Below, one piece after another: positions 5,016 to 61,042 of a stretch of DNA of 64,000 nucleotides. Made by a program: the position numbers and the translations under genes. The notes beneath the pieces were generated by a model, which saw only the letters and a list, made by a program, of their open reading frames with translations, did no database searches and was not told the origin of the DNA. Source of the stretch: Zygnema cylindricum (lineage: Eukaryota; Streptophyta; Zygnematophyceae; Zygnematales; Zygnemataceae); NCBI GenBank assembly GCA_037447655.1, contig JBBHKE010001576.1, positions 248,001-312,000 on the forward strand, in the 5' to 3' direction. Position 1 is the stretch's first letter, and every line of letters begins with the position of its first letter.

Positions 5016-6397
5016 ACCAAAAAGCGTTGATGTCCAATTCGTACGGATTTCAACTTTTTTACGAAAATTACGTAGTATTCGTCGATTTCATACATTTCGT
5101 AAAATTCGTGTAGATTTCGCTGTACAGGCATGTGCGAAGGAGTACGAAAACAATAATCCTATAAAGTCCTTAAAAATATCTTAAAATGTACGGAAATTAA
5201 ACAGAAATGTACGAAACCTTGCGGAATGTGTACCCTAAAGAACCTAATATAACGGAAAATCTAAGGCAGCCGTACTGAAACATAAAGGAGCGCACGGCAA
5301 TGTAACCTAAAAATCCTAAAATGGTAAAATTAAAAATCCCCCTTTAATAACCTTAAAAAGTACGGTAATGTTCAAGCGTTGTAACAGAATGTAACGAATA
5401 TGTACGGATATACACGGGAATGTACGAGAATGTACCCTACACACCCTAAAAGAAATAACCCTAAACATAGGCAAATTACTGACACTGTACGAAAATGTAC
5501 GAGGAATGTGACGCAGATGTACGTCATTAAACGGGATTTTACGGGAATGCTCTACAAATCCTAAAATAAATAACCGTAAAAAGTACGAAAAATACGGACA
5601 ACGTACGTACATTTATGACAAGTGTGAGGGTAGTTATACAGAAAAATACGGAATGTACGAAAATGTACCCTAAAAATCTAAAAATCCCCTTAAATAACCT
5701 TAAAAGTTACGGACATGTACGGGTAATGTAAATAAGTGTACCAGAAATGTACGGCTACAATTAAGGTACGCATTTAATCGACTTTTCAACATCGTTTGAT
5801 GCGTACCGTACGTAGTATTCGTTAGTTTATACCGTGCGTAATATGCGCACGGGACATCTATGCCAAAAAGCCGCCACCCTGCTTTGATTTCATCATTTTC
5901 AAGAAAGGCATTGGTCTGCATGCTCTCGCCACGTGTTGAGATCGAACAACGTGCAGAATGTCGAAAGGTCTTTTCTGGTGATTGCTTGGCGAATTTTGAT
6001 TGGTTTTAATTTGATCGCTAGATCTTTCTGATACCTAAGGGCAACATGGCGTGACGTGTACATTGTTCAATCTGTTCCACAAGGCGCGATCAGATTGCCC
6101 AGCCAGCCCACTAATCACGGACTTCATTGATTTTCGACGATGACGCAAAATGTACTTCTACTTTTTTCTATTTTTTTGTACGGTTGAAACTTACGCGTTA
6201 CGGCGCTGGGTTTTTAGAGGAAAACGACAGAAAAAACCCTTACTTTGGCACATGGAGACACACCCTAACTAAAGACGTTCGAGTGCCCGAAAATGTCTTG
6301 CAATAGCGATCAATGGGTTAACCTCATTGTACTTGGTGAGACCGTTTACAAAAATAGCAATATCAGATTGGTCCGTTTCCTTTCTAGTTTTGTTTTG
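5016..6397. other. Gene-free stretch, GTAC-rich, with a Harbinger-type terminus relic
   Basis: From 5030 to about 5760 words such as TGTACGG, CGTACA and GAAATGTACG recur every few tens of bases without a fixed period. At 6198-6260 the sequence AAAACGACAGAAAAAACCCT followed by CACATGGAGACACACCCTAA resembles the right terminus of the Harbinger element at 41640-41702, so a related element probably once ended here. No gene is supported. Confidence 0.4.
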
Positions 6398-7173
6398 CCA
6401 ACCTGAATCGGAGATATTCATCTTGGTCGTTCACGTTTTAATTTTTTCAATCGTGTCCGTCCAGGTGGATCCGCCTCGCTGAATGAATCTGCTGCTTTTA
6501 TTTTGGCCGTCCACAAATCAGCAAACATCAATCTGCGTCCGTCCATCTCCAAGCTGCATCTCTTTCCAACCTGAATCTGAGACCTTCATCTCAGCCGTCC
6601 GATTAACGCCTCAATTCACGTCCGTCCGATGTTTTACTGGTTCTGCCAATTTGAATACTACACGCTTATCGTGACCGTCGGTGACACAGCTAAGTCAAGT
6701 CACATCCGTCCGATTTCCTCCTGGCCAACTTAAACTTCCAGACGTACACAAGTACAATTTAGTAATTCAGCTCTCCAGCAATTGAGCAGTTCTTTAGCTG
6801 CTGCTGAATCCTTTGCAAGCAATATTTCTGCCAGGGAAACTCGAGCTCAAGATTCTCCAGTAATCCCTGCAACTCATGTTTTTTCAATTATATTCAATCA
6901 TCTCTCTCTACTAATGTTCATTATTCAAACTTGAATATGCACCAAAAAGGAAGAGCTAACAATAAGAGAAGCAGATCATTTTCTCGGACAAGAATTGCAA
7001 TTGAAGGCGAATAGTATCAGTTTCTGAAGCTAATTTATCACCAATTCAATTGAAAACCGCTCAATTACTGCTATTATTGCCACAGAAAGCTAAATTCCGT
7101 CATTCTTTACTTAAATTGGCTATTTTTTATCGGAAAGAAGCTTCAATTCCCGAGAACGCCAATTTAACCAATT
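6398..7173 (+). promoter_or_regulatory. Probable promoter and 5' leader of the PEAMT/FLU gene
   Basis: This is the sequence before the proposed start codon at 7174. It contains two related segments, one from CAACCTGAATCGGAGATATT near 6400 and one from CAACCTGAATCTGAGACCTT near 6568, each followed by CGTCCGTCC-type words. This looks like a short tandem duplication. The base composition differs from the transposon-rich DNA to the left. Transcript start and any upstream reading frame control cannot be seen. The regulatory role is inferred only from position. Confidence 0.3.
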
Positions 7174-10100
7174 ATGGCTCCATCTCCCATTGCAGGTTGA
7201 ACCAGTTTGACCTTTTCTATGAATTGTTTCAATCTCAATTTGTTGACTTTTTTAATTACCAAAATTTCCTGTGATCGTTGCAATAAGTGCTTCTTTTTCT
7301 TTGTTCTCTCGTCTCTTTGAGGGATAATTTGGTTCAGAATTGAGGTTGTGGATTTGTGATCTTTATGACCTTATTTTTAACTGAATTGAGGTTTTGAGAA
7401 TTGTTATTTTTGCTATAATATGGTTCAAAATTGATGTTGTGCTATGCATTTTCTTTAACTGAATTAAGGTTTTAAAGATCTTGAAATCTATGCACCTTTT
7501 TTCAGTGAATTGAAAGGTTTAAAAAGTAATTGAGCATGATTACTATGATGGAAATGAGGCTATCTTTTTTTTCTTTTCAAGAAAAATAACCATTTGTTGT
7601 TTGATTATTATATCTCGGAGGGAGTTTTTATTGTGGGTAATTCTAGTTTAGACATTTCTGCTCATTCTATCTGTTCCATTTTTCAAGCTTTTTAATTCAC
7701 TATAATTGTTATTTTGTAATGTAAAGCTAAATTTCAAAGAAAAAAGTATTGCATGAAGATAACTACTTCATTCTTCTGTGAATTTTCTGCTTGCTAAGGA
7801 GTGGTTGTCCTATTTTAGTATTTTTTGAACTTTCCATGAGGTTAATAAAAGATTGTGGTTATTGACATTTGGACTCCAATCCGATGTTTTGGATCGTCGC
7901 AGCTTTTTTTCGACAAAATAACTGCAATAATTTATATTTTAGTACTTTTGAACCTTTTTTATTAACTATTTTGAATGTTGATTCAATGCTTTGAACCGTT
8001 ACAGTTTTTTTGACAATCTGAAATCTCAATTGTGTTTCTTCTGCGCATCTGTGTTCGCTAATTTATTTTATTTGTTTATTTCTCTGTTGGTTTACTTATT
8101 GCAATTGGGAATGGTTAGAAAAACGGGTCGACACTGTTTTGTTTTTTCACATTTTTTCTATCATACATAGAAAGTGGCCAAATTGGGCTATCTTTTTTTG
8201 TTTTTCATGTTATTGGTTTTGCGGTTTTTTATTTCCTCTGCAATTTCCGTAGGCTGTTTTTTGTTTTATTTATTTAAGAGTTTTTGCAAAGAACAGTTTT
8301 AATGTTTTACTGCCATTATTGTTTTGGAGAGGAAAGGGAATTTGTAAAATTGAGCTCATTTTTCAGATCTGATGGGATTCTTTTTTTCAGAATTTACAGG
8401 GTTTTTTTTTTTCAGAGCTGGTAGGATTTTCTTTTTCAGAATTAATAGGGTTTTTTCGTTTCGAATCGATAGGATTTTATCTTTTTGTTATATTGATAGA
8501 TTTACATAGATATATATATTTTTTAGAGGCAATTGGTTTTGAGTTCCCTTGTGATGGAACTGATGCTCGCACTAAAAATTGGTTCCTTAAAAGGGTTTTT
8601 TCTTTTTTGCGGGGGCAAATTGCTTTAAGCGAACATTTTTTTTTCTATTTTTTCTCTTTCGTTTCGAAACTATTCTCCTGTTTGCATTCACTTTTTTTTT
8701 TGTTTTTAGCCAAGCTGTTCAACACGAAAGAGTGAATACTCTTCCTTGTTTGTTTGTTTGTTTGTTTTTTTTTTAATTATTTCTGAGGCAATTCTTTCTA
8801 CTATTTGTGGTTTTATGTTGAAATTAAACCCAATTTTGTTAAATCTATTTTGATTTGTACTTGTTTTTGTCTCATGTAACAACTGCTGTTTGTCCAATTT
8901 TGTTACATACACTATACTGTTGTATTATTATATTGTTACACTATATATTTCTAAATTTGTTACATACACTAAAGATTAGCCGCAACAAAGAGGTCAAGGC
9001 TATAAATAACAAGTGCTTTCTTTTTGCGTGAAAATTTTAAACTTTTTACAGAGTAGAGAAACAGCATGGTAATTCGCTGCAATTGAAAACCCGTTACAAA
9101 GTAGAAACAAAGAAACAAGCTTCAATGAAAATTTGGCACTAATTGAAACTAATCTTGACTAATTGGAAGCAAGCGTAATCCATCATAACTAATTGTCACT
9201 AATCGAAACTATTTGAAAAGGCTCAGAACGAATCAAAAAATAGTTGAAACTAAATGAACAAAACATTAACTAATTGATACTAATCAAAACCAATTTGAAA
9301 CTATTTTGGAACTAATTTAAATCAATTGAAATGAAGTTAATGCTAATTGCATGGTAAAGAAGTAAAATTCTTAACGATTATTTTTTTTGCAGGTGAGAGA
9401 AAGGAGCAGGAAGATTACTGGAAGGAGCAGATAGGACAAGCTTCCGATGGCCTCTGTGTGAAGTCCATGATGTTGGACAGTCAGGCGGCCCTCCTAGACG
9501 CCCAAGAACGACCCGAGGTAACAAAAAAAAACTCTTTCTTTTCTTTCTTTAAGGCTTTTTTTTGTTGTTTTGTTTTGAGTTTGGTTTTTGGCCTTTTTCT
9601 TTTCGGCCTGCAGAAAGAAATTGTTGTCCGTTAATCCGTGTCTCTCTCCTTGATGTCTGCCACCATCTGTTCTCTCTGTTCCTCTCTGTGTTCCTCTGTG
9701 TTCCTCTGTCTCCCTCTCTGTCTCTCCCTCTCTCTTTCTCTGTCTCTTTCTCTTTATGTTTCTACCTCTCTCTATGCCTTTCTTTGTTCCACTTTCTCCC
9801 TCTGTGATATCTTTCTTCCTCTCTGTGATCTTATGTCCTCTCTTCCTTTCTGTCTGCCTCTCTGTTTTCCTGTGTTCTGTCCTCATCCCTCTCTGTCTCT
9901 CTCTCCCTTCTGACCAGTCTTCCCTTTGTATTTTTCCTCTCTCCCTCTCTGTCTTCCTCCTGTCTCCTTCGTCTTTTTCTGTGACGTTGTCTTCTTTTGT
10001 TCCTTCCTCTTGTCTTCCTTTGTCTCGTCTGTTCCTCTCTCTTCTTCTCTGCCTCTCTATCTGCCTTTTGCTCTGTCGTCCTCTCTATCTTCTTCTCTAC

Positions 10101-12283
10101 CTTCTGACTTCCTCTCTGTCTTCCTGTCTTCCTCTATCTGCCCCTCTGTTTGCTTCTGTCTTAGTCCCCGTCTTGCTCCCTGTCTCTCGTCTCCCTCTCT
10201 GTCCTCCGCTGTCTCCCTCTCTGTCTTCCTGTCTGCGTTCTCTTCCTCTGTCTACACCTGTTTCAACCTGTCTCCCTCTCCATCTCTCTATCCGTCTCCC
10301 TCTCTGCCTTTCGCTCATCTCTGTCTTTATGTCTTCCTCTGTCTTTTGTCTTCCTCTCTGTGATCCTTTATGTTTTCTATCTTCTTCTGTCTTTTGTATT
10401 TCTGACTCCTTTGTCTCTCTCTCTCTCTCCCTTCTTCTGACTTCCTGTCTTCCTCTCTCGCTTCCTCTCTGGCTTCCTCTCTGTCTTTTGCCTTTCCTCC
10501 ATCGAGGGCGGCGTGTCTTTTGCCTTTCCTCATCGAGGGCGGCGTGACAGGGGAGTTGGGCAGTGGCATCAGAAAAAGACCGATTGTTTGTAAATGAAAC
10601 CTGAAATCCTTAAAAACTGAAATCCTTTTGTTTTTCCTTCTTCTCCTCTTTTCCGTCAGATTCTCGGACTTCTTCCCTCCTTGGAGGGTGGAGTGGTAGT
10701 GGAGTTGGGCAGTGGTATTGGACGTTTCACAGGAGCCCTTGCTGACATGGCAGCTCATGTAACAGCTGTTGATTTCATGGCCAACCTTGTGGAAAAGGTT
10801 TGTCCCCACTTTTTTTTTCGCTTTTGAGCATTGTGATGGTTTTTTTTTCTAACATATCAATTTACAATAATATTGTTATATGTTTACATTTTTATGTGTA
10901 TGTGTAATGTATACTGTATATAAATATGTATATTTTATTTGTATGAAAGAAAACCATCGCAATGTAATAACCTTCATTTATATAAAACCATATATATATA
11001 AAACCAAAGGAATTTTACTACAGTTTTTGTTGCTTATTTTTTCTTCTTTATTTATTTATTTATTAACTTTTTTTTTCTGACTAAAAGAGGAGCTGGAAAT
11101 GGAACAGAACAAGGAGACCAATGGAAAACGACAAAATCTGGATCTCCTCTGTGCTGACGTCATGACGCCAGCTGTCCAATTTGAGAACGAGACGATTGAT
11201 CTTGTCTTTTCCAATTGGCTATTTATGTACCTGTCCGACAATGAGGTGGTTTTTTTTTGTTTTTCTTTCTTTATTTGTTATTATTTCATTAATTTACGTA
11301 AAGGAGATTTTCTTAATGTTGGGTTTTTTTTGTTTTCTTTTCTCAGACCACCGTGTGCTTCATTTATCTGTTTTTTTTTTTTTTTTTTTTTGTTATTTTT
11401 TTTCCTTGTCATATTTCAAGTTTTGGAGTAACTTCTTAGAAATTTTTGTGCTGTTTTTATCTGCTGGTTGGGAATCAAAATTCTTGTGAAAAATTGCAAA
11501 AAAAAAAATGCAAAAAAGATTAAAAAAAGTAACAAACGCAAAAAAATGCAAGGAAAAAAAAAATTAGAGAAAGAAGATAAAAAAAAGTGCGGAAAAATAA
11601 CATGTTGAATGCGTTTAATTTTTTTTTTAATGGTGACGTATAAATAAAAAACGAACATTATCCACTTTGGTAAATGATATTTTTTTATCTCTTATTTTAA
11701 TGTATAACGATTATGGTAATGACTTTTATCAATCCTTTTCATTTTTTCTCTTGACTTTGTGTTGTCAATACTGCTTTTATTATTTACACGTTATTATTTT
11801 CTTTTTGTTTTTCATCATTTTTATTTGTGTTTTATTTCCTTTTTTTTTGTTTTTCATCTATTGCGGTTTTTAACATAGCCACTCTTTCTCGTGTTTTCCA
11901 AAAAAAATTATAGTTAGTACCCAAACATGGGTCCAAATATTGTGTTTTTTGAACTAATTTTTTCAAGTTTTAGTTTTCTTTTTGTTTTTCAGTGTGAAAA
12001 AAAATCTGTTTTTTTTTTCTTTTTATTACCCAAATATGAGTTCGAAAATTGTGTTTTTTAACTGGTTTTTGCATGTTTTGGTTCTCTTTATTTCTTTAGA
12101 AGGGGCAAAAAAACATGATTTTTTTTTTCTCCTTTTTAGGTGGAGGTCTTAGGGACAAGAATTATTAAGTGGTTAAAGCCAGGAAGTCATTTTTTTCTTC
12201 GAGAATCTTGTTTCCATCAATCGGGAGATCATAAAAGAAAGTCGAATCCCACCCATTATAGGGAACCTTTTTTTTATACACAG
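7174..12283 (+). CDS. PEAMT: Phosphoethanolamine N-methyltransferase, N-terminal half (5 exons)
   Basis: Proposed coding exons are 7174-7195, 9393-9517, 10660-10797, 11090-11245 and 12140-12283, 195 codons with matching phases and GT-AG introns. The product starts [17 protein letters not shown] and matches the first methyltransferase domain of plant PEAMT, the S-adenosylmethionine enzyme that methylates phosphoethanolamine on the way to phosphatidylcholine in the cytosol. Visible motifs are MMLDSQA, the SAM-binding glycine loop [39 protein letters not shown] and [22 protein letters not shown]. The family normally continues for about 330 more residues, including the end of this domain and a second methyltransferase domain. 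None of that is found to 18 kb. The next exon is FLU-like and continues in phase. The tiny first exon is the least certain part. Confidence 0.85.
7196..9392 (+). other. First intron of the PEAMT/FLU gene
   Basis: A 2.2-kb AT- and T-rich intron runs between the 22-base first coding exon (donor GTTGAA) and the exon at 9393 (acceptor TTTTTTTTGCAG). It has many T-runs and, near 9130-9330, recurring short words such as AACTAATTG and ACTAATCGAAAC. No separate gene is visible inside. Confidence 0.5.
9640..10500 (+). repeat. Polypyrimidine low-complexity tract in intron 2
   Basis: About 860 bases consist almost only of C and T on the coding strand (CTCTCTGTCTTCC-like words), inside the intron 9518-10659. 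Long open frames here read as Ser/Leu/Pro/Cys-rich strings with no family features and are composition artefacts. The same coding-strand pyrimidine bias is seen in introns of the root-cap genes at 18951-19425 and 27480-27785. Confidence 0.85.
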
Positions 12284-12372
12284 GTGGGATTTTTTTTTTT
12301 ATCCCTTGTTTTTTTTTCCCCCTTTTTTCTCCCCTTTTTTTTTTTCCTTTTTTTTTTTTTCTTCTTTTTCAG

Positions 12373-15070
12373 AACATTGCCAAAATCGATCGACTCGAAA
12401 AATCCGAAAAATTCGACGAAAAATTCGACAAATTCGGTCGTTCAGCGATGCTATTCGTCGGTTCGATTGTGACATTTGTCGCGTCCTCGGGATTCGCGGA
12501 ACGGAGTTTGGCGATTGCCGAAGATATAAGTTGCAAGGAGGAGTTTGGGGGGGCCGACCCAAATACCGTTTTTATTATCGCCTGTGTCGCCGAGTTTCTC
12601 GCTCTTACCGGAGCTGCCGTGGGAGGTGAGAATAGTGTGGTTTTTAAGGGTTTAAATTTGTATTTTTTGAGGGTTAAATTGTGGCTACAATTGGGGAGAA
12701 GTCGGGTACAATTGGGGTTAAAGTTTGGTTAAAATTGGGTACAATTGGGGTTTGATTTGGGGGTTGAAAAACCGTTTTTATCATTGCTTGTATCGTCGAA
12801 TTTCTTGTAGTGGGAGGTGAGGAGTTTTATCGTTTTAGGGTTAGAATGGGGTCAAAATGGGGTTAAGTTTTTTTATTGTTTAAGTTATATTTGGGTCATT
12901 ATAGCTTTAACAAAATATTTTCAAAATAGAGTATTAGTGAATTCCAAAAGTAAACTGTTAAAATTGAACATATCTCTCTTTTTTAATTCTTTGAAAAGTG
13001 TAAAATTTGAACTCTTAAATGCCAGAAGCAGTTGTCCCTAGGAGAATTAGGAGAAAATTTCAATTTGTGTCTTTATAAAAAACCCGTCGACTCTCAAACC
13101 CTAAGAAAACCCTAGAAAACCATGGAAAACCCCTTAAAATATTGTAAGAATGGCTCTTTATCAAAAAAAATGCGAACTTGCATTCATTTTTTTTAAATGT
13201 ATAAGACATTAGAAATCATAAAATTTGGGCGTTCCTCCCCACAAAAAACAAACAGTAAAAAAAAAGGTTATTGCACTGACAAAAAAATAAAAACCTAATC
13301 GGGGGGAAATGTTTGAAAGCCTTTCGGAAAACCTTTTGTAAAACCTTTCCAAAAACCGTTGCGAAAACCCTTTCCGAAAGCCTTTAAGAAAACCTTTCCG
13401 AAAAGCTTTCTTAACCTTCCTTAAAACCGTTCGGAAACCAAAACCTTTCAAAATAAACCTTTTTTTGCAGGCATTTTAGCTCGGCAACGAAAACAAGAAT
13501 TAGAGGTGACCAATTCCCAATTGAGACAAATAAATACAAGTTTGAGGAATGAAAAAAACAAAAGAAAAAAACCGTGCACCGACAAAACTAACAAAAACTT
13601 CTGGGGGAAAAACATTTGAAAGCCTTTCGAAAAACCTTTTGTAAAACCTTTTGAAAAACCTTTCCGAAAACCTTTGTTAACCTTTCTTGAAACATTTCGG
13701 AAACCAAAGCCTTCCAAAAAAAACCTTTCTTTGCAGGCATTTTAGCTCGACAACGAAAACAAGAATTAGAAGTTATCAATTCCCAATTGAGACAAATCAA
13801 TATAAGTTTGAGAAAACAAGCGAGAGTCGAAAGTTACGCCCCGACTTTGACTTATGCTCCTGTCGGAGCGGCTACTGTCACGGCGAGAGCCAGTGGGACG
13901 GCAACAGCTGTCAGAGAGTCGCCGGAAGTTTCCGAATCTTCTTCTTCGGTTTCGAGGGAAAAAGACGAAGCCATTCGATTGTTGAAAGCCGGGAAAAGGT
14001 GTTTGAGAGAACAGAATCCTCAAGAAGCGACATTGCAGTTCGAGGCTGCGTTGAAATTAGCAAAAAAGTTGGGAGATAAAGTGGAAGAAAAGAAGGCGGC
14101 GAGAGGATTAGGTGAGAGACTCTCTTCTTCTTCTTATTTTTGTTCTTCTTCTTTCTCTTCTTCTTCTTCTTCTTTTTCTTCTACTTCTTCTTTTTTGTTG
14201 TTTTGATTTTTTTTTTTTTCGTTTTTCGACCGTGAATCGGTATTGGCGTTAATGACACTAATTCGGTGCCGATTATTTTTTTCGGCCCCTCATAAAATAG
14301 TGTTAACAATTATTAATTGTTCTTTTTCTTTATGTATCGACTGAAATTCTTGCTACATATTTTTCAATGCTTTTCTTCTTTTCCTTTGGTTTTTCTTCCT
14401 TTGTATCCTTTATTGTCGGTTGCTTTACGATTCTCTTGTTGTGTTTTTACTTGTTAATTTCATTTCTTCGTCTTTTACTTTGTCCTCCACAATTTGGGTG
14501 ATGGTTTCTTCTTTTTTTGACTCTGTTTTGTATGTATATTGGGAAAAGAATTCCATGTCTTTGAAAAACATCCTGCAGTTTCTTTTTCCAGCCTGGATCC
14601 AAATACAGCTCTTTTTCTCTTTTTCTTTATTTACTATTTTTTTTTTTTAACTGTAGCTCTTCTTTAGTTTCCGTCTCTTTTTTTGTTTCTTACATTAATG
14701 TTCCTTTCGTTTTTCTTTCCTTCACTAAACTGATGTTGCAAACTCTGTTTTTTCTTTCTCTTTCTCCTTCTCTTTTTGTTTCTCTTTCTCTTTCTCTTTT
14801 TGTTTCTCTTTCTCTTTTCGTTTCTCACACAAACAACGACAAAAAGGCGCTTCGTATCAACGCCAAAAACTGTACAAAGAGGCGATAAAGTATCATCAAA
14901 TGGTGTTAGAAGTTTCGAAAGTATCGGGAGAATCCTCGGGCGATACCGAAGCCTTTGGAGCCATCGCTGATTGTTATACGGAGCTCGGAGATCTCGAATG
15001 TGCTGCGAAATATTACGACCGATACATTAGTCGACTCAATCACGCTAACGAACTCGACAATCAGGAGTGA
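12373..15070 (+). CDS. FLU: FLU-like TPR protein, negative regulator of chlorophyll synthesis (3 exons)
   Basis: Exons are 12373-12625, 13737-14111 and 14847-15070 with stop TGA, 284 codons including stop. The product has a hydrophobic segment ([20 protein letters not shown]), then the FLU signature [35 protein letters not shown], and C-terminal TPR helices with [22 protein letters not shown] and [24 protein letters not shown] is a plastid membrane protein that restrains glutamyl-tRNA reductase through its TPR domain. A plastid transit peptide is expected upstream but none is seen. Only an 89-bp intron separates the first exon from the methyltransferase exon, and the phase continues without a break. 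A start at the internal Met (12448) would leave no obvious transit peptide. Either a fused product or a missing alternative 5' exon is possible. Confidence 0.85.
12769..12816 (+). pseudogene. Relic copy of the end of FLU exon 1
   Basis: ACCGTTTTTATCATTGCTTG...GTAGTGGGAG followed by GTGAGG repeats the end of the exon at 12373-12625 (ACCGTTTTTATTATCGCCTG...GCCGTGGGAG then GTGAGA). About 15 bases are missing inside. It sits in the following intron and has no matching acceptor in frame, so it looks like a dead tandem-duplicate fragment. Confidence 0.6.
13290..13826 (+). repeat. Tandem duplication, about 266 bp, spanning intron tail and exon start
   Basis: Two successive copies contain GAAAGCCTTTCG, CCTTTTGTAAAACC, a run of CTTTCCGAAAACC-like words, AACCAAA.CCTT and TTTTTGCAGGCATTTTAGCTC. 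The acceptor sites lie at 13470 and 13736, an offset of 266 bases. The second copy carries the functional FLU exon; the first carries the duplicate described separately. Confidence 0.75.
13471..13560 (+). pseudogene. Duplicated 5' part of FLU exon 2
   Basis: After a good acceptor (TTTTTTTGCAG) this segment encodes [19 protein letters not shown] and INTSLRNEK, nearly the same as the start of the true exon at 13737. After that it diverges into sequence that stays open without a clear donor until a stop near 13618. Splicing into it would give a truncated product ending before the TPR domain. It could be a dead duplicate or a regulatory alternative exon. Confidence 0.65.
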
Positions 15071-16994
15071 TTTTTACGGTTTATAAACAAAAAAGAAAAA
15101 AAGAAAAAAGTAGAAAGAGAAAAAAAAGAAAAAAACAAAAAAACAAAAAGGCGAAAAAAATATATGTTCTATGTCGACAGTTCCGTTGCTGTGGAAACTC
15201 TGTCAGTTTGGAGTTACGATGAGGGTTACATTCTTTTTCCTACCCTTTTTCTGTTTTCCTCCTCTTCTTTTGTCCTCCTCGTTCTTTTTTCCCCTTTTTC
15301 TTTTCCCCTTTTTCTTTTTCCCCTTTTCTTTTTTTCTCCTCTTTCTTTTTTCCCTTTTTTCTTTTTCCCCGCTTTACTTTGTTTCCCCTTTTAGCTTTTC
15401 CCCTTCCCTTCTTTTTAAGATTAGTATAAGAAGTTTCTCTCAAACGGAAGAAACAGTTTTATGACATTTCCATGTAATGAAGGCGATTCTTTGAAATGTT
15501 CTATGTGGGAAAATTTTAATTTTTGTTCCGTTCTGATTTTCGGTTTCCGTTCGTTCCGTTTTCGAGGAAAATTAGTGACATGGATTGTCGGGGGAACTCT
15601 TCCGAGACAACTTCAGCGATAACCCTAAAAACATTATTCTAGTTTAAACGTTTTTATTGTTTTTTTAATGGTATGTAAAACCATGGTAGACTTTAGGTTT
15701 TGAGTTTTGGTTGTAGAGAGATATCTCCATTTTTGTTGTATCACTATTTTTTGTTGTATTTTTTTCTTTTTTCTTTCTTATTTTTACATTTTCTTTTTTT
15801 ATTTTTTCTTTTTTCTTTTCTTGTATTACAATACTTGTTTCGGGATAACGAGGAATTAAAAACGTTTTTTTTACAGTGAAGAATATGTGGCAAATATAAG
15901 AGTAAGTTATAAATTTTTTTATTTTATTTTTTTACTTTTTTTACTTTTATAAAGCTTTCTTTCTTGTTTTCCTTTTTTATTCCCCTTCTTGTATCGAGAT
16001 AGTTTACCCTCGCGTTTTTTAATTAAGCCTATTTTATACTATTTTCTGTTGAAATAAGTGTGGATATAATGTCATATTGCCGTGAATATTTAAGAATAAA
16101 CCCTAAAGATTGTGTTATTTCGCTAATGGGAAGTCCGTTGCCGGAAAAGAATTAAGAATATTCAATATATATATTTATCAATTTTTAGTATACTCACAAT
16201 GTTATCGTAGTCTAAAACTCTTTCTGAAGAGTCTGGTGGACAAAATTTTGCATCATAAAAAACATTTTTTGATATTTTTTGGTTTTTCTTAAATTTGTAA
16301 GAAGCAACAAACATTATTTTGTTAATCTTTGTTTCTCGTCGGTTTTCATAATTTTTTTGTTAAAATGGCCATATAAGAAAAAACGGTTTCTAGCTATTAA
16401 AAGCACAAAACAGTAATAAAAAAATGTGATGTAATATATTGTAGTATATATTCAACAGGGAGAAATAGAGCTTAAAGAAATACTAAGCTTAGAGAGTGAT
16501 TAATGATAGTCAAAGTTTGGCTATTTTTTAAGCTTAATGATGAAAAATAGTAGATTCATTTATTTTTTTGTTTTATTTTGTTTTATTTTGATTTATTTAT
16601 TATTATTATTATTATTATTTTTTTGCTTTCTTTTTTGCCTTTTTTTGGTTTTTTTGTTTGGAGATGCTGTTGATTTTTAGCATCCCCTAGGTGCCAAGTC
16701 ATATCTCAAGTCAACAACAAACACCAGGCAGTCTATGTTAATAGTACACGCAAAAGATACAAATGTGGACATGTTTCTCTTTTATTACATGTGATAAACC
16801 TTTTTTTAACACATTATACGAGTAACCAAGCGTTAAATAGGCGTTTTTAATGCGTTTTGTAATATATGTGTGTGTAAGTACTTATTATACAAGTATTGCC
16901 TATTGAATACTTTATATAGACTACCAAAGTTTCTGTAATTTCGCTACTATGTAAGCATTGTCTTCCTTCACCAAATTCCTCACAATGTGTCATA
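15071..16994. other. 3' flank of the FLU-like gene and AT-rich intergenic DNA
   Basis: A-rich then C/T-rich tracts (15080-15410) follow the stop codon, then AT-rich DNA with T-runs and an (ATT)n microsatellite near 16598-16620. AATAAA-like words occur, but I cannot single out the real polyadenylation site. No gene is supported. Confidence 0.4.
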
Positions 16995-17478
16995 GTTGTT
17001 CACGGTGTTTAGTGCGAACGATTTAATCGCGACGAATTATACGTAACAAACGCATTGAACCTTTTGAAAAAATCGTAAAAATCGTTAATGAATTTTCGTC
17101 TGTACTGTTCCGTACGTGTAAACAAAAATAAATTTCACATATACCGCAGTTTGTACATTTTTCGTACATTTTCCGTATCTTTTCCTAATAGTCCGTACAT
17201 TTTTGGTACAATTCCGTACATTTCCGTACATTTCCGTAAAATTTCTGTTCAGTTTACCGGACAGAAAGTACTACGAAGTGCAGCGTAACTTTTCGTCAAA
17301 TTCCGTACATTTACCGTTCAAAACCGTACAGCTATCGTAAAACACCGTACAGTTTCCGTAAATTAGCCGTTCAGTTTACCGGACAGAAAGTACATCGCGA
17401 TTCTTTGCGATTTTTTCAAAAGTCACGAATTATACGTTTCAATCGCAAAAAAGGAAAAAATCGCGCGATTTGAACAAC
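16995..17478. mobile_element. Small TIR element, GTTGTTCAAA family, copy 2
   Basis: Bounded by GTTGTTCACGG and CGATTTGAACAAC, with GAATTATACG near both ends in inverted order. It contains two copies of TTCAGTTTACCGGACAGAAA and several CCGTACATTT words. The layout matches copy 1 at 1212-1679, which supports both as members of one MITE-like family. Confidence 0.5.
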
Positions 17479-17749
17479 AAGGCAATGTGTTAAGAATACT
17501 TGCCAATAGTAATTTTTAATAAAGTCTTTTTCGTAGTTGCCCTTGGATATCGATAAAATAAAATAAAAATTTCGACCTGGAAAGAATTCATAACGGATGA
17601 TTGTATGATTGTATCGCCTGCGACATTCACTAAATCGCGATATATCATGTTGGCGTTATTTAAAAAACAGCCGCCTGAATGCCTGATCCACATCGATATT
17701 CACAAAAAATGGAATTTTTAATGTTAAGCTTCAACCAACCGTCGGCATA

Positions 17750-17877
17750 GGTCGCAAACGGTCAACCGAAACCGTGACCGACCGTTAACCGACCGCCCGC
17801 GCCGGATCCGGAACGGATTCGGTTGCCAAATTTTGGGGGTCGGGCGGTTACGGTCGGTTGATTCACCAGGAAAAATT
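17750..17877. repeat. 128-bp imperfect palindromic repeat, copy 1
   Basis: Starts GGTCGCAAACGGTCAACC, has a CCGACCGCCCG arm opposite CGGGCGGTTACGGTCGG, and is nearly identical to 34152-34278. GC-rich compared with its surroundings. It can fold back on itself. Origin unknown, probably the interior or end of a small transposon. Confidence 0.7.
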
Positions 17878-18699
17878 TTTACTTTTCTCTCATGTAAAAA
17901 AGTTAATGCTTACAATACTGTAGTTCACACTCCAACGAATGGCATGAAGGAAAAGACTAAATCAAATTGCGTCATCGTTATTATTGTCACTCATCATTAT
18001 CATCCTCGTCGTCATCCTCATCTCCAAATGAACGCTTACTTCGTCGAAACTTGAGAAAACGAAAACAGAATAGTTAGATCAAGAAGCTGAATTTTAATAT
18101 AACATAAAAAAAACTTAATTCCTTATAAGAACTTGCTCAGTTTTACTTTTTAAAAAGCCACACTACTTAGAATGAAATCTTTTCTATTCTAAAAATAACA
18201 ATATTTTTTCTCAATGTGCTGCAAAAGAATTTGCTAACAGTAAAATACTAGAACATAATCAAAAACAAAAGTAAAATTTAAACAATTAAAAAAATACAAC
18301 TAAGTATATTCAACTAGTGACCAGCATTCGATGTATAGACCACTCAGTTACATACACCTTATCTCCACTGTCCATGTCTCCTTATATATTTGCAACCATT
18401 AGACACCAATAACCAATTGTTCAATCCACACTACTCTATTTCGTTCCTCAATGTTGCTACTTCACTTATCATTCACTCAACTTATAAGATTCTTTAAAGT
18501 AGAAAATGAACTCATCCTAAATACATCTCCCCGCATTCCCCTCAAATTCAGCGAATTTTAAACACCTGAACCTATCCACATCTCCTTTGCAGAGTACAAC
18601 CAAAAACCACACGTTAACAACATAACTGCATATAACTATCGTCCATCAGATCGTATTTCTGAACGGAAACCTGACCCCGAAAAGTAACTTTTTGGCGCT
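17878..18699. other. 3' flank of root-cap gene A
   Basis: No gene. The right part is homologous in inverted order to the flank after copy B at 28037-28300. For example TACATCTCCCCGCATTCCCCT here corresponds to AGGGGAATGCGGGAAGACGC there. The duplication that made A and B therefore extended beyond the genes. Confidence 0.5.
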
Positions 18700-21051
18700 C
18701 TAATTGGACGACATTTCAATCACATTACCCGGCGCATTTCCGAGAAACTGAGCGAATCGGCAATCGGCGGTCAAAACGCGCGACACCACATAATCTTTTG
18801 GCGCGCCGTCAAGAAATCCGCGTCCGCTTTCGCCGTCGGCCGCAATGGGATGCTGTAGGAGGGCCGCCAGATGCGAGAATTCAACGGCGCGATTTTCCCG
18901 CCCTTCCCGGTAGGTCTGGCCGAGGACTCCGTGGACCGAGGGAGTAGTTTGGAAAGAGGGAGGAGGGAAACAGACGGAGAAAGAGGGAGGGAGGGAGAGA
19001 GAGATTAGGGATAGCACTGAAAAGGGAGGGCTTGTGGTAAGAGCGAGAGAGAGAAAAGGGGAAGAAAGAGAGATAGAGGGAGGAGGAGAAGGCAGGAGAG
19101 GGGTAGGGAGAGGGAGAGAGCGAGGCAGAGAGAGGTAGAGGGAAGAGGGAGAGGAGAGGGAGAAGAAGAGTAGGAGAAGGTAGGCGAGGGAGGCAAGAAG
19201 AGGAAAAGAGAGAGGAGAGTGGGAGAGAGAGTGGGAGAGAGAGAGGGAGAGAGTGGGACCGGAAGAGGGAGAGGCAGAGAGAGAGGACAGTAAGAGAAAA
19301 ATTGGCAGAGGGACACAGGGAGAGGAATAGAGAGAGAGAGAGATAAAATGGGAGAGAGAGTGTGAGAGGGAGAGGGATAACGTAAGGGGGAAGAGGGAGA
19401 GAGAGAGAGGGAGAGCGAGAATAAATACCTGGACCCAATTGATCCCCAGGTTGAAGTGGATCTCGGCGTCATCCGGCCTCTGGAGGAGTGGATTGGCCAC
19501 GTGGATTCGAAGATCCATGTCCAAAAGATCCACAATCTTCACGCTGTAGTAGTCCACATCGTACGGCCCCTTCTTCTCCACCCCTTCCAGCTTCACGGTC
19601 AGACCGCCGGCCAATAGCAGCTCGTCTCTGACCTGTATCCTCGGAAGATCCTCCCCATCCACGGCCGCAAGTGCCAAAAATCCTTCCTCACGCGCTGTTT
19701 CTTTCCCCGCACGTGCGACCAATTGGAGTCTATGAACTCCTCCTTTCGCGAACCTTGTCGGAAAGAAGACAAAAGCTTTTGTCGGGTTCTCCGCTGAAGT
19801 CATAGTGTGTTCCGTGCGCACCGACCAAATGCGGATCATTGTTGACTGTCGCTTTGCACTTTCCGCCCACTTTTGTCTTTATAAGAACATTGTCCGTACA
19901 TTCGGGCCCATTTCCCCCACAGTATATGAAGCATAGACCACCATAGGCTCCCCTGTGAGATGGATTTTTCCAAAACAATTGAGCTAATTTGAGTTAGTTT
20001 GGGTTACCAAATTTTTGGACATCAAGAAGACAACTCCAGCGGCAAAAAAGTAGAGGCGATAAAAAAAGAGGAGAAAGAAAAAGATACAACCAGAAACGGA
20101 TGAACTCCGAGGGACAGTAGCCAGATTCTGAGAAAGAAAAGAGAAAAATAGAACCTGGCAATCATCACAATAAAAACTTGCAAGGGAGTAAAATACAGCT
20201 TGACACGTTGAAGATTTGAGAACTTCTCCGGCACTCTGATAAAAAAAAAAATTCAAAGAAATCGATAACTTATTGTACATTACTTGTCTGTTTATGTGCT
20301 TGATTCTTTTTGTAGAGTGAGAGAATTTTTTGTTCCGTACAAGTTAAGCCACTGCCAGTAATTACACTTGGCAGCGCCCTTGCATTTAATGCAGCACTTG
20401 TCCGCTGAGCCTTTCTGAGTCACGCGAATATCGGCGTTCACGACCGTATCGTCGGTGAGATTGCCGGTGAGATAAAAAGCGGACGTCCCATAGCCCACCA
20501 GTAACGGACAGTCGGATGGAATCTGGAAGCAGGTGTGCACATAGAAAAGCGCACAAACGTCATGCCATGCAATTGTACCATGTTTGTGAGAATTCAGGAA
20601 TTTCAACTTCAGTTTTCATTCCCAACTTCAGTCTCAACTTCAGTTTTGTATCTCAAATTCAGCTTTTAGTCTTAAAGCTAAATATAGACCTTAATTTGAA
20701 TTTTTAATCTCAAGCTCAACTTTTAAGCTCAAATTCAACTTTTAGTCTCATGTTCAATTTCACTATTTATTCCAATTTACATTTCAATTCAAACTCAAAT
20801 TCAAATTCAAATTCAATTGTAATTTCAGTTTCAATTCATTTTCGTATTAAATGCAAATATCGATTTCAAATTTCAATGTTTGATTCTACTTGTTAGGGAT
20901 CCACCACAAATTTCCCCTTGAGGCCTCCCTGGCTACAAGGCCCCGTATTGCACCCGTTGTTCGCTCGGTAGTCCGGACATTGAGCTGTCACGACTACGGC
21001 GATCGCGACAAAGTAAAATGAAAGTAACATCAGATTTTTAACCGAATCCAT
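18700..21051 (-). pseudogene. Root-cap-domain secreted protein, copy A (damaged)
   Basis: Exon homologues on the minus strand are 20905-21051 (start ATG, signal peptide MLLSFYFVAIAVVVTAQC), 20341-20522 (Cys-rich, SADKCCIKCKGAAKCNYWQW), 19429-19952 (von Willebrand D/root-cap part with GGKCKATVNNDPHLVGAHGT and HYDFSGEPDKSFCL) and 18700-18948 (VHGVLGQTYREG, stop TAG). Root-cap-domain proteins are plant extracellular proteins. Compared with copy C, about 130 bases are missing after SFCLLSD and the frame shifts there. The last intron has lost its acceptor: AG is AA at 18949-18950. That intron is 480 bases, a multiple of three, and has no stop, so the frame reads through from 19839 to 18700. Either a pseudogene or an altered gene. 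Confidence 0.75.
18951..19425 (-). repeat. Polypyrimidine tract (coding strand) of copy A intron
   Basis: The plus strand is a GAGAGAGGGAG-type purine run, so the gene strand is CT-rich. It lies exactly in the position of the last intron of the root-cap gene. It stays open in the frame that joins the two flanking exons and would read as a Leu/Ser/Pro-rich stretch of about 160 residues if retained. Confidence 0.85.
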
Positions 21052-26369: not shown

Positions 26370-28036
26370 TGTTTCTAGTAGTCTACTTTGTCGCGATCGC
26401 CGTAGTCGTGACAGCTCAATGTCCAGACTACCGAGCGAACAACGGGTGCAATACGGGGCCTTGTAGCCAGGGAGGCCTCAAGGGGAAATTTGTGGTGGGT
26501 CCCTAACAAGTAGAATTCAACATTGAGATTTTGAAATTGACATTTTTTCCAAAAATAAAAAAGGAATTAGAATTATAACTGACATTGCACTAGAATCTGA
26601 AATTGAAACTGAAATGGAACTGAGATTTAAATCGGAATAAATAGTGAAATCGAACTTGACATTAAGGGTTTCACTTGAGATTAAAAGTTTAAATTAAGGA
26701 TAAAATTTAAACTAAGGCTAAAAATTAGATCTAAGATTCAAAACTGAATTTGAGATCAAAGCTGAAATTAAATGCTGAAGTTGAGATTAAAAAATGAAGT
26801 TGAGACTGAAGTTGGGAATGAAAACTGAAGTTGAAATTCCTGAATTTTCACAAACATGGTACAACTGCATGGCATGACGTTTGTGCGCTTTTCTATGTGC
26901 ACACCTGCTTCCAGATTCCATCCGACTGTCCGTTACTGGTGGGCTATGGGACGTCCGCTTTTTATCTCACCGGCAATCTCGCCGACGATAAGGTCGTGAA
27001 CGCCGATATTTGCGTGACTCAGGAAGGCTCAGCGGACAAGTGCTGCATTAAATGCAAGGGAGCCGCCAAGTGTAATTACTGGCAGTGGCTTAACTTGTAC
27101 GGAACAAAAAATTCTCTCACTCTACAAAAAGAATCAAGCACATAAACAGACAAGTAATCTACTATAGATTATCGATTTCTTTGATTTTTTTTTTTTTTCA
27201 GAGTGCCTGAAAAATTATGAAATCCACAACGTGTCAAGCTGTATTTTACTTCCTTTTCTTCCGAGGATGCAGGTCGGAGACGAGCTGCTATTGGCCGGCG
27301 GTCTGGCCGTGAAGCTGGAAGAGGTGGAGAAGAAGGGGCCGTACGATGTGGACTACTACAGCGTGAAGATCGCGGATCTTTTGGACATGGATCTTCGAAT
27401 CCACGTGGCCAATCCACTCCTCCAGAGGCTGGATGACGCCGAGATCCACTTCAGCCTCGGGATAAACTGGGTCAAGGTATTTATTCCCGCTCACTCTCTC
27501 GCCGCCTCTCGCTCCTCATGCTCTCTCCCTGTCTCCCTCTCTCACTCTCTCACCCACTACCTCTCCCTTTTCCTCATCATGCCTCCCTCTCCCACTGTCT
27601 CTCCCACTCTCCTTCTTCCTCTCACTCTCCCTCCTCTCCCTCTTCCTCTCCATCTCCTTCTCGTCTCTCTCCATCCCTCCCTCCCTTCTTTCCTATCCCT
27701 CTCTTTTTCCCCTCTCTCACTCTTGCCACAAGCCTTCCCTTTCACTTCTATCCCTAACCTTTTCTTCTTTGCTCTCCCTCTCTCCAGACCACTACCTCGG
27801 TCCACGGAGTCCTCGGCCAGATGTACCGGGAAGGGCGGGAAAATCGCGCCGTTGAATTCTCGCGTCTGGCGGCCCTCCTCCAGCATCCCATTGCGGCCGA
27901 GAGCGACAGCGGCCGAGGATTCCTCGACGGCGAGCCAAAATATTACGTGGCGTCAGGCGTTTTGACCGCTGACTGCCGATTCGCCCAATTTCAGGAAAAT
28001 GAGCCGGGGAAAGTGATGGAACTATCTTCTAATTAG
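26370..28036 (+). pseudogene. Root-cap-domain secreted protein, copy B (internally deleted)
   Basis: Exon homologues are about 26379-26494 (YFVAIAVVVTAQCPDYRAN; no ATG in frame), 26915-27096 (IPSDCPLLVGYGTSAFYL and ADKCCIKCKGAAKCNYW), a truncated third exon from about 27262 to 27476 (MQVGDELLLAGGLAVKLE, YDVDYYSVKIADLLDMDL) and 27788-28036 (SVHGVLGQMYREG ... MELSSN, stop TAG). Relative to A and C the whole von Willebrand D-like first part of exon 3 is gone. Intron 2 sequence at about 27250 runs straight into the middle of exon 3. Copy B is an inverted duplicate of A, with homologous introns and flanks. It cannot make a normal secreted protein. Confidence 0.8.
27480..27785 (+). repeat. Polypyrimidine tract of copy B last intron
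   Basis: CTCTCCCTCTCTCAC-type sequence on the coding strand, between donor AAG|GTATTT at 27476 and acceptor TCTCCAG at 27787. It is homologous in position to 18951-19425 in copy A. Copy B retains a normal AG acceptor where A has AA. Confidence 0.85.
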
Positions 28037-31149: not shown

Positions 31150-33076
31150 CTAATCTATTTTCCAGCCTAATTCATTGGCAATTCCAGTATGTTCACCAGG
31201 GCGTTCCCCTACAAAACTAGAAAATTTGCAGTCCGCCTCCAAAACGCCCGAGAAGACATAGCCGGTCGGGTCGCCGTCGAGGAATCCTCGGCCGCTGTCG
31301 CTGTCGGCCGCAATGGGATGCTGGAGGAGGGCCACCAGACGCGAGAATTCAACGGCACGATTTTCCTGCCCTTCCCGATACGTCTGGTCGAGGACTCTGT
31401 GGACCGAAGGAGTAGACTGAAGAGAGGGAGAGAGAGGAAAAAAAGCGGGAAGGATGGAGAGAAAGATGGTAGGGATAAGTGGGGCAGAAAAGGTCCGTGG
31501 GAGTCGTTTGGATATAGGTAGAGAAACAAAAAGAAGTGGGAGAGGAAATGTGGGAACTTGAAAATTATCTGAACGTGTGACTGCAAGTGAAAGTGAATGT
31601 GGACGAGACTGAGATTGAGAATAAAGACAGGGAAATGGATAATTTGCGACGCCAGTATTATATGGTATGAAAATAGTATGAGATGGAAAGAGAGACTTAG
31701 AATGGTACCTTAAACCAGTTGATCCCGAGGCTGAAGTGGACCTCGGCGTCTTCCGGCCTCTGAAAGAGCGGATTTGCCACACGAATACGGACATCATTGT
31801 CCAAAAGATCCGCAATTTTCACACTGTAATAGTCCACATCATAAGGTCCTTTCTTTCTCGATAGCCTCAAATTTGATAATCAAAACGCCTTCCAGTTTCA
31901 ATTCATCTCCAACCTGCATTCTCGGAAGATCCTCACCGTCTACTGCCGCGAGTCCCAAAAATCCCTCCCCACGACTATTTTCCTTTCCCCAACGTGCTAC
32001 TAAATGGAGACTATGGCTTTCTCCCTCCGCGAACCAAAAAAGACCCACTTCCTTGATCCATGTTCGTATAGCTTTTCCGTTCTTGATAACCATGGCACTT
32101 TCCGTACGGTTGTCCAAGTATCCGATCATCTTCATGTTGATGTGGAGGTTGGAGTCGGAAACAAGACAAAAGCTCTTGTCGGGTTCTCCGCTGAAATCGT
32201 AGTGAGTGCCGTGTGCACCGACCAAATGTGGATCGTCGTTTACCGTGGCTTTGCATTTTCCACCCACTTTTGTCTTTACCAAAACGTTTTGTGTGCATTC
32301 CGGGCCCTTTCTGCCGCGGTACACAAAGCACAGACCTCCATAGGCTCCCCTGAAAGACATAAATCGGTACAAAATTACGGGTCATTTCGGGTAATTTGGT
32401 TAATTTGAGCCAGTTAGGCTAACATGAGTTATAGGCGGGATAAGGGTATTATTGATCTGATACGAATTAATGTTTGAACTCTTACAAAGATGCAGATTGC
32501 ACTTTTCTTGAACGGAAGGAAATTTGAAGTCGTATAATATCAGTGCAGCTTTACATTATTGCATTCAGAGTACATCACAATTTTCTTGTTCATTTGTATA
32601 TTCTTAAAACACAAGGCTTAGTGGGAATGTTTTTCCGTACATGTTAAGCCACTGCCAAAAAGTGCACTTCGATGCATCCTTGCATTTAAGGCAACATTTT
32701 TCCGCCGAACCCTTTTTGTATGCTCGAATATTAGCGTTGACCACCGTGTCATCCGGAAGGTTGCCCGTCAAATAAAACGCGGCCGTTCCGTATCCCACCA
32801 ACAACGGACAGTCGGACGGAATCTGTACGGATAAACAGCCATGGAACCGGTTCAGTGTGGTGAAAATTTAGCTCCAAGTGTGGTAAAAATCCAAGCTCCA
32901 AGTTTGCCCAGCATCGCCTTTTCACTTACCGCGAACTTTCCCTTGAGACCTCCATTTTTACATGGCCCCGTGTTGCAGCCATTGTTGACGCGGTAGTTGG
33001 GGCATTGGGCTGTCACGACGACGCCGCCTACGAGAGCGAGAAAGAGGAAAGAGGATACCAAGTGACTGGCAGCCAT
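31150..33076 (-). CDS. Root-cap-domain secreted protein, copy C (best preserved, one frameshift)
   Basis: Minus-strand exons are 32930-33076 (ATG, signal peptide MAASHLVSSFLFLALVGGVV ending near VTAQC), 32641-32822 (Cys-rich, EKCCLKCKDASKCTFWQW), 31709-32349 (GGKCKATVNDDPHLVGAHGT, HYDFSGEPDKSFCLVSDSNL, and a long beta-rich part) and 31150-31416 (PSVHRVLDQTYREG, EADCKF). Root-cap proteins (PF06830) are extracellular and resemble von Willebrand D domains. Exon 2, with paired cysteines, resembles a PAN/apple-type module. Phases fit, but near 31851-31858 there is one extra base compared with A and B, which shifts the frame inside exon 3. A true mutation or a sequencing error are both possible. 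Corrected length would be about 411 residues. Confidence 0.75.
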
Positions 33077-33974
33077 GGCTGGAAAAAAATTATGGGGAAA
33101 CGAGGATGGTAAAAGAGGGAAAAAGAAAGAAGCGCAAATCACGATAGAGATTTTGGAAAGGAGTGGGAGAGAAGTGTGGGAAAAGAGCGCGAATCTGACT
33201 TAAAAGTGAGAAAAGAGAGAAAGATGATGGAAGGAAGAGAGAGAGGAAGAGAGGGGAATTGTAAATTTTGAAGTGGCTTTTGCGGATTAATAGTTTCCCG
33301 CAAAGAGTTCAGATACACCGGTTCTGATCTGGCCGTACAGTAAAGTACAGAGTCCTGCAAGAAAAAAGACAAAACTGTATGATTGGTGTAAGGTTGTATC
33401 ATCGGTACATCATTGCCGGAGTTGTCGGCAGAGTGATAGATAGACCCGGCGAAAGGAAATCAGGAGAAAAAAATAGAAGGTGTGTCTTGTAGTGAAGGTC
33501 GGGCAGCTGTGAAAAAGGTCGTTCGGGCAATTGTTCAAAAGTCGACAAAAGATATTTTCCCATGTTGAAAGATTCCGCTGTTTTCTTGTGGTTATCATTT
33601 GTTTACTAAATGGCGAAACGGTAGAATCAAATGTTCATCTTTTTAATACCTAAAAATGTTATTTTGTTTGTCATGATTCATAATTAGTTTGCTTGTCATT
33701 TAGTATTTTTTTTGGAATTCTTGCATGTATAGAACTTCTCGAATGAGACATCTCATTTCAACAAAAACAAGCGTGCGAGCCATTTTAATGGTACGTATAT
33801 CTCGCGTGCGAATAGATACAGCGAATGGAAACTCCTCGTTACACGGATTGAACTTATCACACGTACAAGATTCTGTTTAATGACCTTATGTCCGGACAAA
33901 TGACGTTTTCAAACATGAAAACAATAGCCTACGGTCCGAAAAAGGAAAGCAGATGTCACGACGTTTCACATTTA
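33077..33974. other. 5' flank of root-cap copy C
   Basis: A purine-rich leader (AGAGAGGAAGAG-type, about 33100-33260 on the plus strand) precedes the start codon, as in copy A at 21070-21160. Beyond that the DNA is AT-rich with no gene. Promoter elements are not individually recognisable. Confidence 0.35.
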
Positions 33975-34072: not shown

Positions 34073-34150
34073 TAGTGTTGTGTATCGGTACAAAACTTAT
34101 CGCGATAACACCGATACCGATAGTTATCGGTTATCGAACGGTCAGAGGCA
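34073..34150 (+). mobile_element. Truncated left end of hAT-like element
   Basis: TAGTGTTGTGTATCGGTACA... follows the left end of the 2906-4806 element for about 75 bases (CGATAACACCGATACCGATA, TTATCGGTTATCGAACGGTC) and then breaks off at the palindromic repeat. No right end found nearby. Confidence 0.6.
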
Positions 34151-34151
34151 G

Positions 34152-34278
34152 AGGTCGCAAACGGTCAACCGAAACCGTGACCGACCGTTAACCGACCGCC
34201 CGCGCCGGATCCGGAACGGATTCGGTTGCCAAATTTTGGGGGTCGGGCGGTTACGGTCGGTTGACTCAACAGGAAAAG
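34152..34278. repeat. 128-bp imperfect palindromic repeat, copy 2
   Basis: Nearly identical to 17750-17877, including GCGCCGGATCCGGAACGGAT and the CCGACCGCCCG / CGGGCGGTTACGGTCGG arms. Its junction with the truncated hAT-like end suggests it inserted there or belongs to a composite element. Confidence 0.7.
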
Positions 34279-36355: not shown

Positions 36356-37895
36356 GTGGGCACTTTTTGTAAGATGACACCGGAACAAAAAAAAAGATAT
36401 GTGACATTGATGATTCAAAGTGTTACACTTGCATTGATGACGGTTTTGCAAATGGTTTTGAGAACCTTGTTGCCACCGTTATTTTTCGACAATCACGGCC
36501 ACCAAATGGTCCAAAACGCTATTGCTAAGGTTATGCCTCGAATTTTAACAAAATGTATCCAACAAAATATGAATTTCTAAGGTGATCCGGATGAAAACTA
36601 CTATATTAACCCAAGGAGTATGCATTGGGTGGACGAAGAGTTACCACGCTACAACGAAAAACAATTTCAACAATTGTTTCGACTAAAAAAAGACATGGTC
36701 CAAATTTTGGTTAACGATTTAAAAGATGACTTGGATACCAAACCCCCACCCGGCCTTCATAACCTTCCTAATAGAGAATTAAGCGCGGAGAAACAAGTTT
36801 TAATAGCATTGATGCGATTGGGACATCAAGGCGGGATCACACGTACTTCCATACAGTTTGGTGTTGGACCCTCGACTGTGGCGAGGATATTTATTAAAGT
36901 CATGAAGGCGATTGTCAAAAGGCTTGAGCATTGGGTTAGATGGCCTACAGAGGAAGAAATTCAAGACACCAAATTGTTTTTCCAAGAGAACAAAGGGTTG
37001 ACGAAATTGTGTAGGCGCTAAAGATTGCACACATATAGAGATAACACTCGGGGATGAAATGTCAGCAAATGACTATTTCGATGCAAAACATAATTATTCT
37101 ATTGTAATTCAAGCAGTCGTTGATTATATGATGAGATTCATTGACCTAAATTTAGGCTCTCCCGGAGCAATGCACGACTCGAGAATTTTTAGAAGGTCGA
37201 AATTGGGGGAAAGCTTACAAAGACGTATGCAAGCAAGCGACAATATTTTCCAATGGAATAATTTAAATGTGCAACCTTACCTCGTAGGAGATGCCGGTTA
37301 CGCCCTCCATCCTAACCTAATTGTTCCTTATCTTGGTTCGAATCTTAATGCATCTCAAACAAAATTCAACTTCCAACATGCGTCGTTGAGGATGGTGGAA
37401 GAAAGAGCTTTTGGAAAGCTCAAAGGGCAATGGAGGTACCTTTTGAAGATACACAATCCAAAAAGGAGATCAATGCTTACTTCTATTATTGCTGCTTGTA
37501 TCCTTCATAACCTTTCAATTGCAAGAAACGAGACCAACATTGATTGGGAGAAAGAGTTCAAAGACGAGCAATCAAAAATAGAAACGGCATCCAAGAAAGA
37601 TTCCAAACGTATGTCCGAAGCTCGAGAACGACGAGCAAGACAAGGTGGAAATGTCCAAAGACGGTTAGTTGGTTCTCAAGCCAACAGAATTCGAGGGTCT
37701 CAAATACGAGACATTTTATGTGATTATGTCACGAGGAGAAGGGCAAATGAAGATGATGATGTTGGTGTTTACGTTTCACACGCGGAAGGAGATGATGACA
37801 TAGATATTCTCATTGACGAAGACGAAGAAAGCGAACAAACTCATGATGATACAAGTGACGATGTCACAATAGATGAAATGGACATCGATGGGTGA
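36356..37895 (+). pseudogene. PIF/Harbinger transposase (DDE), damaged
   Basis: An N-terminal part includes a helix-turn-helix-like segment (GITRTSIQFGVGPSTVARIF). The nuclease domain follows with CVGAKDCTHIEI (first Asp), DLNLGSPGAMHDSRIF (second Asp) and MVEERAFGKLKGQWRYL (Glu). It cuts and pastes the element in the nucleus together with the second element protein. Two lesions are visible. One is an in-frame TAA at 36578-36580, after QQNMNF and before GDPDENYYINP. The other is one extra A near 37006-37008, just before CVGAKD, that shifts the frame. The C-terminus is acidic (DEDEESEQTHDDTSDD). An intron could in principle avoid the second lesion, but no good splice pair is seen. Confidence 0.85.
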
Positions 37896-40064: not shown

Positions 40065-40327
40065 TTCGTTTCAAGACATTTTACCTGTGAGGGGTGTCAT
40101 ACAGATAGGGTGAGTCAAAAGGTGTAAGTTATTATTTAATCTTCTCCAAATGATTTACTACGTTCTTTGTTCATTTCACACTGCAATTCAAAAACACTTT
40201 GCAACAATTAAAAAACACTTTGCAACACACAGAATGAGACAAATTTGCAAACAGACTACAACCAATTTTTTCAAAATGTCGTAATTAGCTCCAAGTTTTA
40301 CAACCCATAGCAAGAGCAGCAAGTGGT

Positions 40328-60250: not shown

Positions 60251-60276
60251 TTGTACGGTTTCTTCGGATCCTTCCC

Positions 60277-60993: not shown

Positions 60994-61042
60994 GGATTCC
61001 CAATAGATGAACCTAGATCAGTTGAAGGTGGGCACCTTAGAG

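Follow-up and report, generated by a model that had tools for sequence, protein, structure and literature searches.

The window analysed here is a 64-kb stretch of Zygnema cylindricum DNA (64,000 nucleotides of contig C1178), in which five exons of a phosphoethanolamine N-methyltransferase (PEAMT) are followed, head to tail and in a single open frame, by three exons of FLUORESCENT IN BLUE LIGHT (FLU). The question raised by this locus is whether the two halves form one gene in the alga or were brought together by the assembly. The structure that the original prediction had read from the sequence could be rebuilt as described, with five PEAMT exons up to 12283, an 89-bp intron with good splice signals and then FLU; all introns were GT..AG, the phases agreed and the frame comprised 478 codons plus the stop (Table 1). 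One boundary was revised: 11108 (acceptor ..GGAACAG) is the more probable start of exon 4, six codons after 11090, because the related protein P0002 reads NLVEK followed by NKETNG, and with this start the frame has 472 codons. The junction intron is also much shorter than the other six, which measure 310-2197 bp when exon 4 is taken from 11108. Pfam placed a methyltransferase domain at residues 64-166 of the fused frame and TPR at residues 400-466. The phrase "two truncated genes head to tail", offered by the original prediction as an alternative, is right as a description of the assembly.

Table 1. Exons and repeated segments at the PEAMT-FLU junction (window positions unless a contig is named).
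Feature	Position	Strand	Remarks
PEAMT exon 1	7174..7195	+	MAPSPIAG, phase 1 donor; P0002 counterpart MAPSPVEG
PEAMT exon 2	9393..9517	+	81% to P0002; contig C2326 has a near-identical exon
PEAMT exon 3	10660..10797	+	83% to P0002
PEAMT exon 4	11108..11245 (probable start; originally 11090)	+	start favoured by P0002
PEAMT exon 5	12140..12283	+	phase 0 donor; 92% to P0002, which goes on AFKNLQ..
Junction intron	12284..12372	+	89 bp, 90% pyrimidine
FLU exon 2 (membrane segment)	12373..12625	+	matched to P0001 and C2572
FLU exon 3 (linker, first TPR part)	13737..14111	+	matched to P0001 and C2572
FLU exon 4 (TPR, stop)	14847..15070	+	96% to P0001
Shared block	12292..17875 = C2572:39290-44861	+	99.66% identity
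Dispersed repeat, ~134 bp, ending in A-run	17742..17875		further copy at 34147-34277

Among the matches listed, the closest relative of the PEAMT part was P0002 (495 aa, 78%), a full two-domain enzyme, and the part stops at a position equal to P0002 residue 189. Since the similarity of P0002 to PMT-1 (4krg) spans residues 15-236, domain 1 is cut short by about 47 residues, presumably the last strands of the methyltransferase sheet, and the window copy does not reach the end of a complete domain 1 at about residue 236. The portion retained is predicted to have an AdoMet-binding methyltransferase fold, as suggested by Pfam matches over the cut-off (Methyltransf_11 and others) and by the structures 5wp4 and 5wp5, and exon 3 carries what we take to be the AdoMet motif. 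No exon of PEAMT domain 2 rose above background in the 64-kb window, nor was any found in the 15.5 kb from its right end to the end of the contig (C1178:312001-327473), which bears out the original description of a methyltransferase that ends inside its first domain and lacks the second. A nested-gene model, with FLU lying within a long PEAMT intron, was rejected for the same want of a domain-2 exon in these two regions.

The FLU part was closest, among the matches listed, to P0001, a separate FLU protein of 295 aa (82% over 99% of the FLU part). The TPR domain of FLU is present in the window copy (Pfam; TPR region vs. 4yvo, E 2.2e-40), and the membrane segment and linker also appear to be present when the copy is aligned with P0001 and four further FLU homologues. 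According to PMC10967246, mature FLU combines a membrane segment with a coiled coil and a TPR domain, and it acts at the thylakoid. The plastid-targeting leader exon is absent from the window copy, so the missing transit peptide had been correctly noticed; a leader-like exon, judged by eye, sits on contig C2572. Partial copies of FLU exons 2 and 3 were observed within the intron after exon 2 (12771-12818 and 13470-13553; 62.5 and 75% to P0001, respectively), and the exon 3 copy belongs to a local tandem duplication (13353-13549 vs. 13619-13815, 86%).

A search of the same genome with P0001 returned eight exon matches, four on C1178 and four on C2572, and the latter contig was compared over 30,000 of its 250,222 bases. 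The FLU exons of C2572 matched by P0001 lie at 39380-42063. Exon 1, at 37359-37586, has 76 codons, is transit-peptide-like (MSTSLLVHVAASSSCHVCRAATWQDAKES..VTMAEESERRERK) and ends in MAEESERRERK with a phase-0 donor (AAG, then gtaagg); in P0001 the corresponding residues are MMEESERRERK. Against C2572, the first 15 residues of P0001 reached a best score of 49; the other strand gave 22, and 60 shuffled peptides scored no higher than 32. An intron of 1.78 kb follows, and then the same three exons as in the window, so that C2572 encodes an uninterrupted FLU protein of 359 aa; a small exon may have been missed in this model, since the stretch SILETIPSK of P0001 has no counterpart in it. Inside FLU intron 1 of C2572, at approximately 38442-38540, a decayed exon-2-like stretch (KFRKSGHSALLFVSSLTFVSL) was seen by eye. 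From these alignments, the window copy is best described as a second copy of the last three exons of the C2572 FLU gene.

Past 12335 the two FLU copies are separated, in 5.5 kb, by three substitutions (13430, 14557, and 17318) and two indels (1 bp at 14207 and 10 bp at 15291-15300), all five of them outside exons; in the junction tract, the window differs from C2572 at 12301, 12306-12308, and 12335. At the left edge, homology to the C2572 FLU locus starts within the junction intron, between about 12292 and 12309, and to the left of it C2572 carries FLU intron 1 and exon 1 instead of PEAMT. At the right edge, the block ends at the A-run closing the dispersed repeat. Sequence of either kind can lead an assembly to switch path, and real rearrangements occur at such sites as well. 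Beyond the block, the window and the 30,000 bases of C2572 shared only shorter or more diverged matches, many of them multi-site, and these were taken for dispersed repeats; a P0002 search of those bases found nothing. Adjoining the right edge, the minus strand at 17987-18055 could encode the C-terminal end of a gene with an acidic tail (LKFRRSKRSFGDEDDDEDDNDE, then a stop). The possibility that C2572 was a haplotig confirming the fusion was discarded, as its FLU copy shows the opposite, an exon 1 of its own.

The introns involved are both of phase 0, at the donors of PEAMT exon 5 and of C2572 FLU exon 1, and whenever two real genes are joined intron to intron their splice sites will look good; for these reasons, the agreement of phase across the join is weak evidence for a fused gene. 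The least probable of the explanations considered places the start of FLU transcription in the FLU part itself, or in a first exon hidden in a PEAMT intron: there is an in-frame ATG in FLU exon 2 at about 12448, but a scan of 6000-12400 with the P0001 N-terminus for a FLU exon 1 within the PEAMT introns found nothing above background, and the exon 1 that does match lies on C2572, beyond the limits of the shared block.

Homologues were retrieved with the fused query (844 proteins, best 120 of 844 listed), with the FLU part (best 120 of 700) and with the PEAMT part (all 23 listed). Counted once each, the proteins listed number 248, of which 127 matched the PEAMT half, 121 the FLU half and none both; organism-named matches listed for the fused query came from land plants and Closterium. 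A fused relative did not appear among these proteins, the closest of which (P0001 and P0002) are separate. No near-identical protein fitting the same species occurred among the 248 listed (top identity 82%, P0001). PEAMT fragments of the same species were sought among the 23 PEAMT-part matches and none was near-identical (highest identity 75%). None of the papers searched names "fluorescent in blue light" together with "phosphoethanolamine N-methyltransferase" in those spellings.

These results do not support one of the two readings of the original prediction, a chimeric gene whose protein, half PEAMT and half FLU, would tie choline to chlorophyll control. One open frame does run over all eight exons, but the methyltransferase part lacks domain 2 and some 47 residues at the end of domain 1, the FLU part is without a leader exon although FLU with a leader exists on C2572, and the listed homologues keep the halves apart. 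Moreover, the two FLU copies are so nearly alike, even in their introns, that selection would have had little time to become visible. No function is expected of a fused frame with only a partial methyltransferase domain and no plastid leader, and we regard a functional chimera as very improbable.

The assembly (352.8 Mb in 2689 contigs) was searched with P0002 for further PEAMT copies. Nine matches were obtained, four at this locus, one on C2669, three to copies of exon 2 (C2326, C805, and C2596) and one on C974, the last being another methyltransferase (27%). Scoring of 12 candidates in this search revealed no intact PEAMT domain 2; the only copy found is a decayed one on C2669, with two TGA and four TAA codons. 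The absence of an intact domain 2 fits either an incomplete assembly or loss of the PEAMT 3' half, and no contig with PEAMT exon 5 running into exon 6 was found.

The domain-2 pseudogene at C2669:8987-9806 lies in pieces spaced as if by introns. A second PEAMT 5' end with exons 1 and 2 intact occupies C2326:43302-47251 and matches window positions 6324-10175 at 85%. Its exon 2 differs from that of the window at 2 of 125 positions (98.4% alike), whereas intron 1 is 90% alike over 1400 bp and 88% over its last 390 bp; the copy may once have been under selection, given that exon 2 is far closer to the window than intron 1 is. It was rejected as an intact PEAMT, for after exons 1 and 2 a copia-like sequence begins in intron 2 (tblastn matches to the copia frames of the window) and none of the exons from 3 onwards came to light. 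Both C805 and C2596 carry a rearranged PEAMT 5' pseudogene, the latter being a redundant contig, with 13,059 of its 13,463 bp 100% identical to C805.

Considering the near-identity of the FLU copy to C2572, the low-complexity and repeat sequence at the edges, the existence of redundant contigs and the separate proteins of the relatives, we think it probable that a misjoin or wrong gap-fill put a second FLU fragment behind a truncated PEAMT. The assembler or gap-closer would have passed from a pyrimidine tract in PEAMT intron 5 into the one immediately upstream of FLU exon 2, and would have come out of the FLU sequence at the A-run that ends the repeat at 17875. The switching would have cost PEAMT its 3' half, and the open frame across the join would be incidental. 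An assembly break at 12284-12372, which the original prediction had itself set against a fusion, is accordingly likely on this comparison of contigs. Several observations speak against a misjoin: the FLU copies are not 100% identical, as a reused contig should be, there are no Ns in the window, a contig with the normal continuation of PEAMT after exon 5 did not turn up, and the C2572 gene model may lack a small exon.

The likely source of this DNA is the assembly of Zygnema cf. cylindricum SAG 698-1a_XF, given in PMC11096116 as 359.8 Mb in 3,587 scaffolds with a BUSCO value of 70.6%. The same paper reports 29.8% Copia and a heterozygosity of 2.22%, terms the genome both "diploid" and "probably polyploid", and names SPAdes, WENGAN and gap closing by Platanus-allee as assembly tools. 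The BUSCO value and the gap closing are in keeping with a misjoin. If this is indeed the source, three substitutions in 5.5 kb fall far below the average allele difference reported there, and it is then more likely that a single locus was assembled twice or that the copy is very recent.

A very recent copy could also be a real one. The join may have arisen through a duplication that set some 5.6 kb of FLU sequence beside a PEAMT copy whose 3' half was lost, recently and without function, and the PEAMT affected is possibly one of several copies in a duplication-rich, possibly polyploid genome. The dispersal of PEAMT 5' fragments (exons 1-2 on C2326 and the rearranged copy on C805), the decayed domain 2 on C2669, the few sites at which the FLU copies differ and the other local partial exon duplicates within the window all agree with such an event. 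However, no continuation of PEAMT was found past the block, either within the window or over the 15.5 kb that remain of the contig, the edges coincide with low-complexity and repeat sequence, and redundant contigs exist in the assembly, so that we hold a recent real join to be possible but rather unlikely. We consider it doubtful that the living alga carries a very recent copy of the FLU rear spliced behind the PEAMT front, yielding from the PEAMT promoter a protein of half PEAMT with membrane and TPR segments that is perhaps mislocalised outside the plastid; if real, this would be a gene newly made by exon shuffling, on which selection has yet to act. As inferred from the contigs rather than from reads, the join is most likely an artefact and not a recent mutation. 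In that case, gene prediction at the window would merge two unrelated genes, and caution is advisable, as gene models over low-complexity introns in repeat-rich algal assemblies can yield convincing in-frame fusions.

The remainder of the window contains other elements. On the minus strand, an open frame at 18700-19878 gave a Root_cap Pfam match barely above the cut-off over 21 residues. Open frames near 27168-27965 (plus strand) and 31150-33199 (minus strand) resemble it by eye, suggesting a repeated gene family, and the two frames tested at 31150-33199 had no Pfam match. A transposase with HTH_Tnp_4 and DDE_Tnp_4 (Pfam), which we take to be Harbinger-type, lies at 36581-37895 (plus strand). 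A Copia-type element occupies 57032-61017 (minus strand), with gag_pre-integrs and an integrase core at 59076-59849; its remainder was read by eye.

Compared with known systems, the first half of the frame resembles the plant two-domain PEAMT/PMT (PMT1 and PMT2; structures 5wp4 and 5wp5), residues 4-189 of the 189-aa query aligning with residues 3-184 of 5wp5 (E 5.7e-73). The AdoMet motif is kept, whereas the window gene ends inside domain 1 and lacks domain 2. The second half shares the membrane segment, linker and TPR of FLU, the TPR regulator of glutamyl-tRNA reductase (P0001; structures 4yvo and 4yvq), and differs in the loss of exon 1 with its transit-peptide-like leader, which the C2572 copy has. 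Misjoins and false duplications at low-complexity and repeat edges are a general kind of assembly artefact. The present case departs from this kind in the few differences between the copies, and is proposed here from assembled sequence; it is like it in the near-identical block on two contigs, in edges formed by a pyrimidine tract and an A-run, and in the redundant contigs found elsewhere in the assembly.
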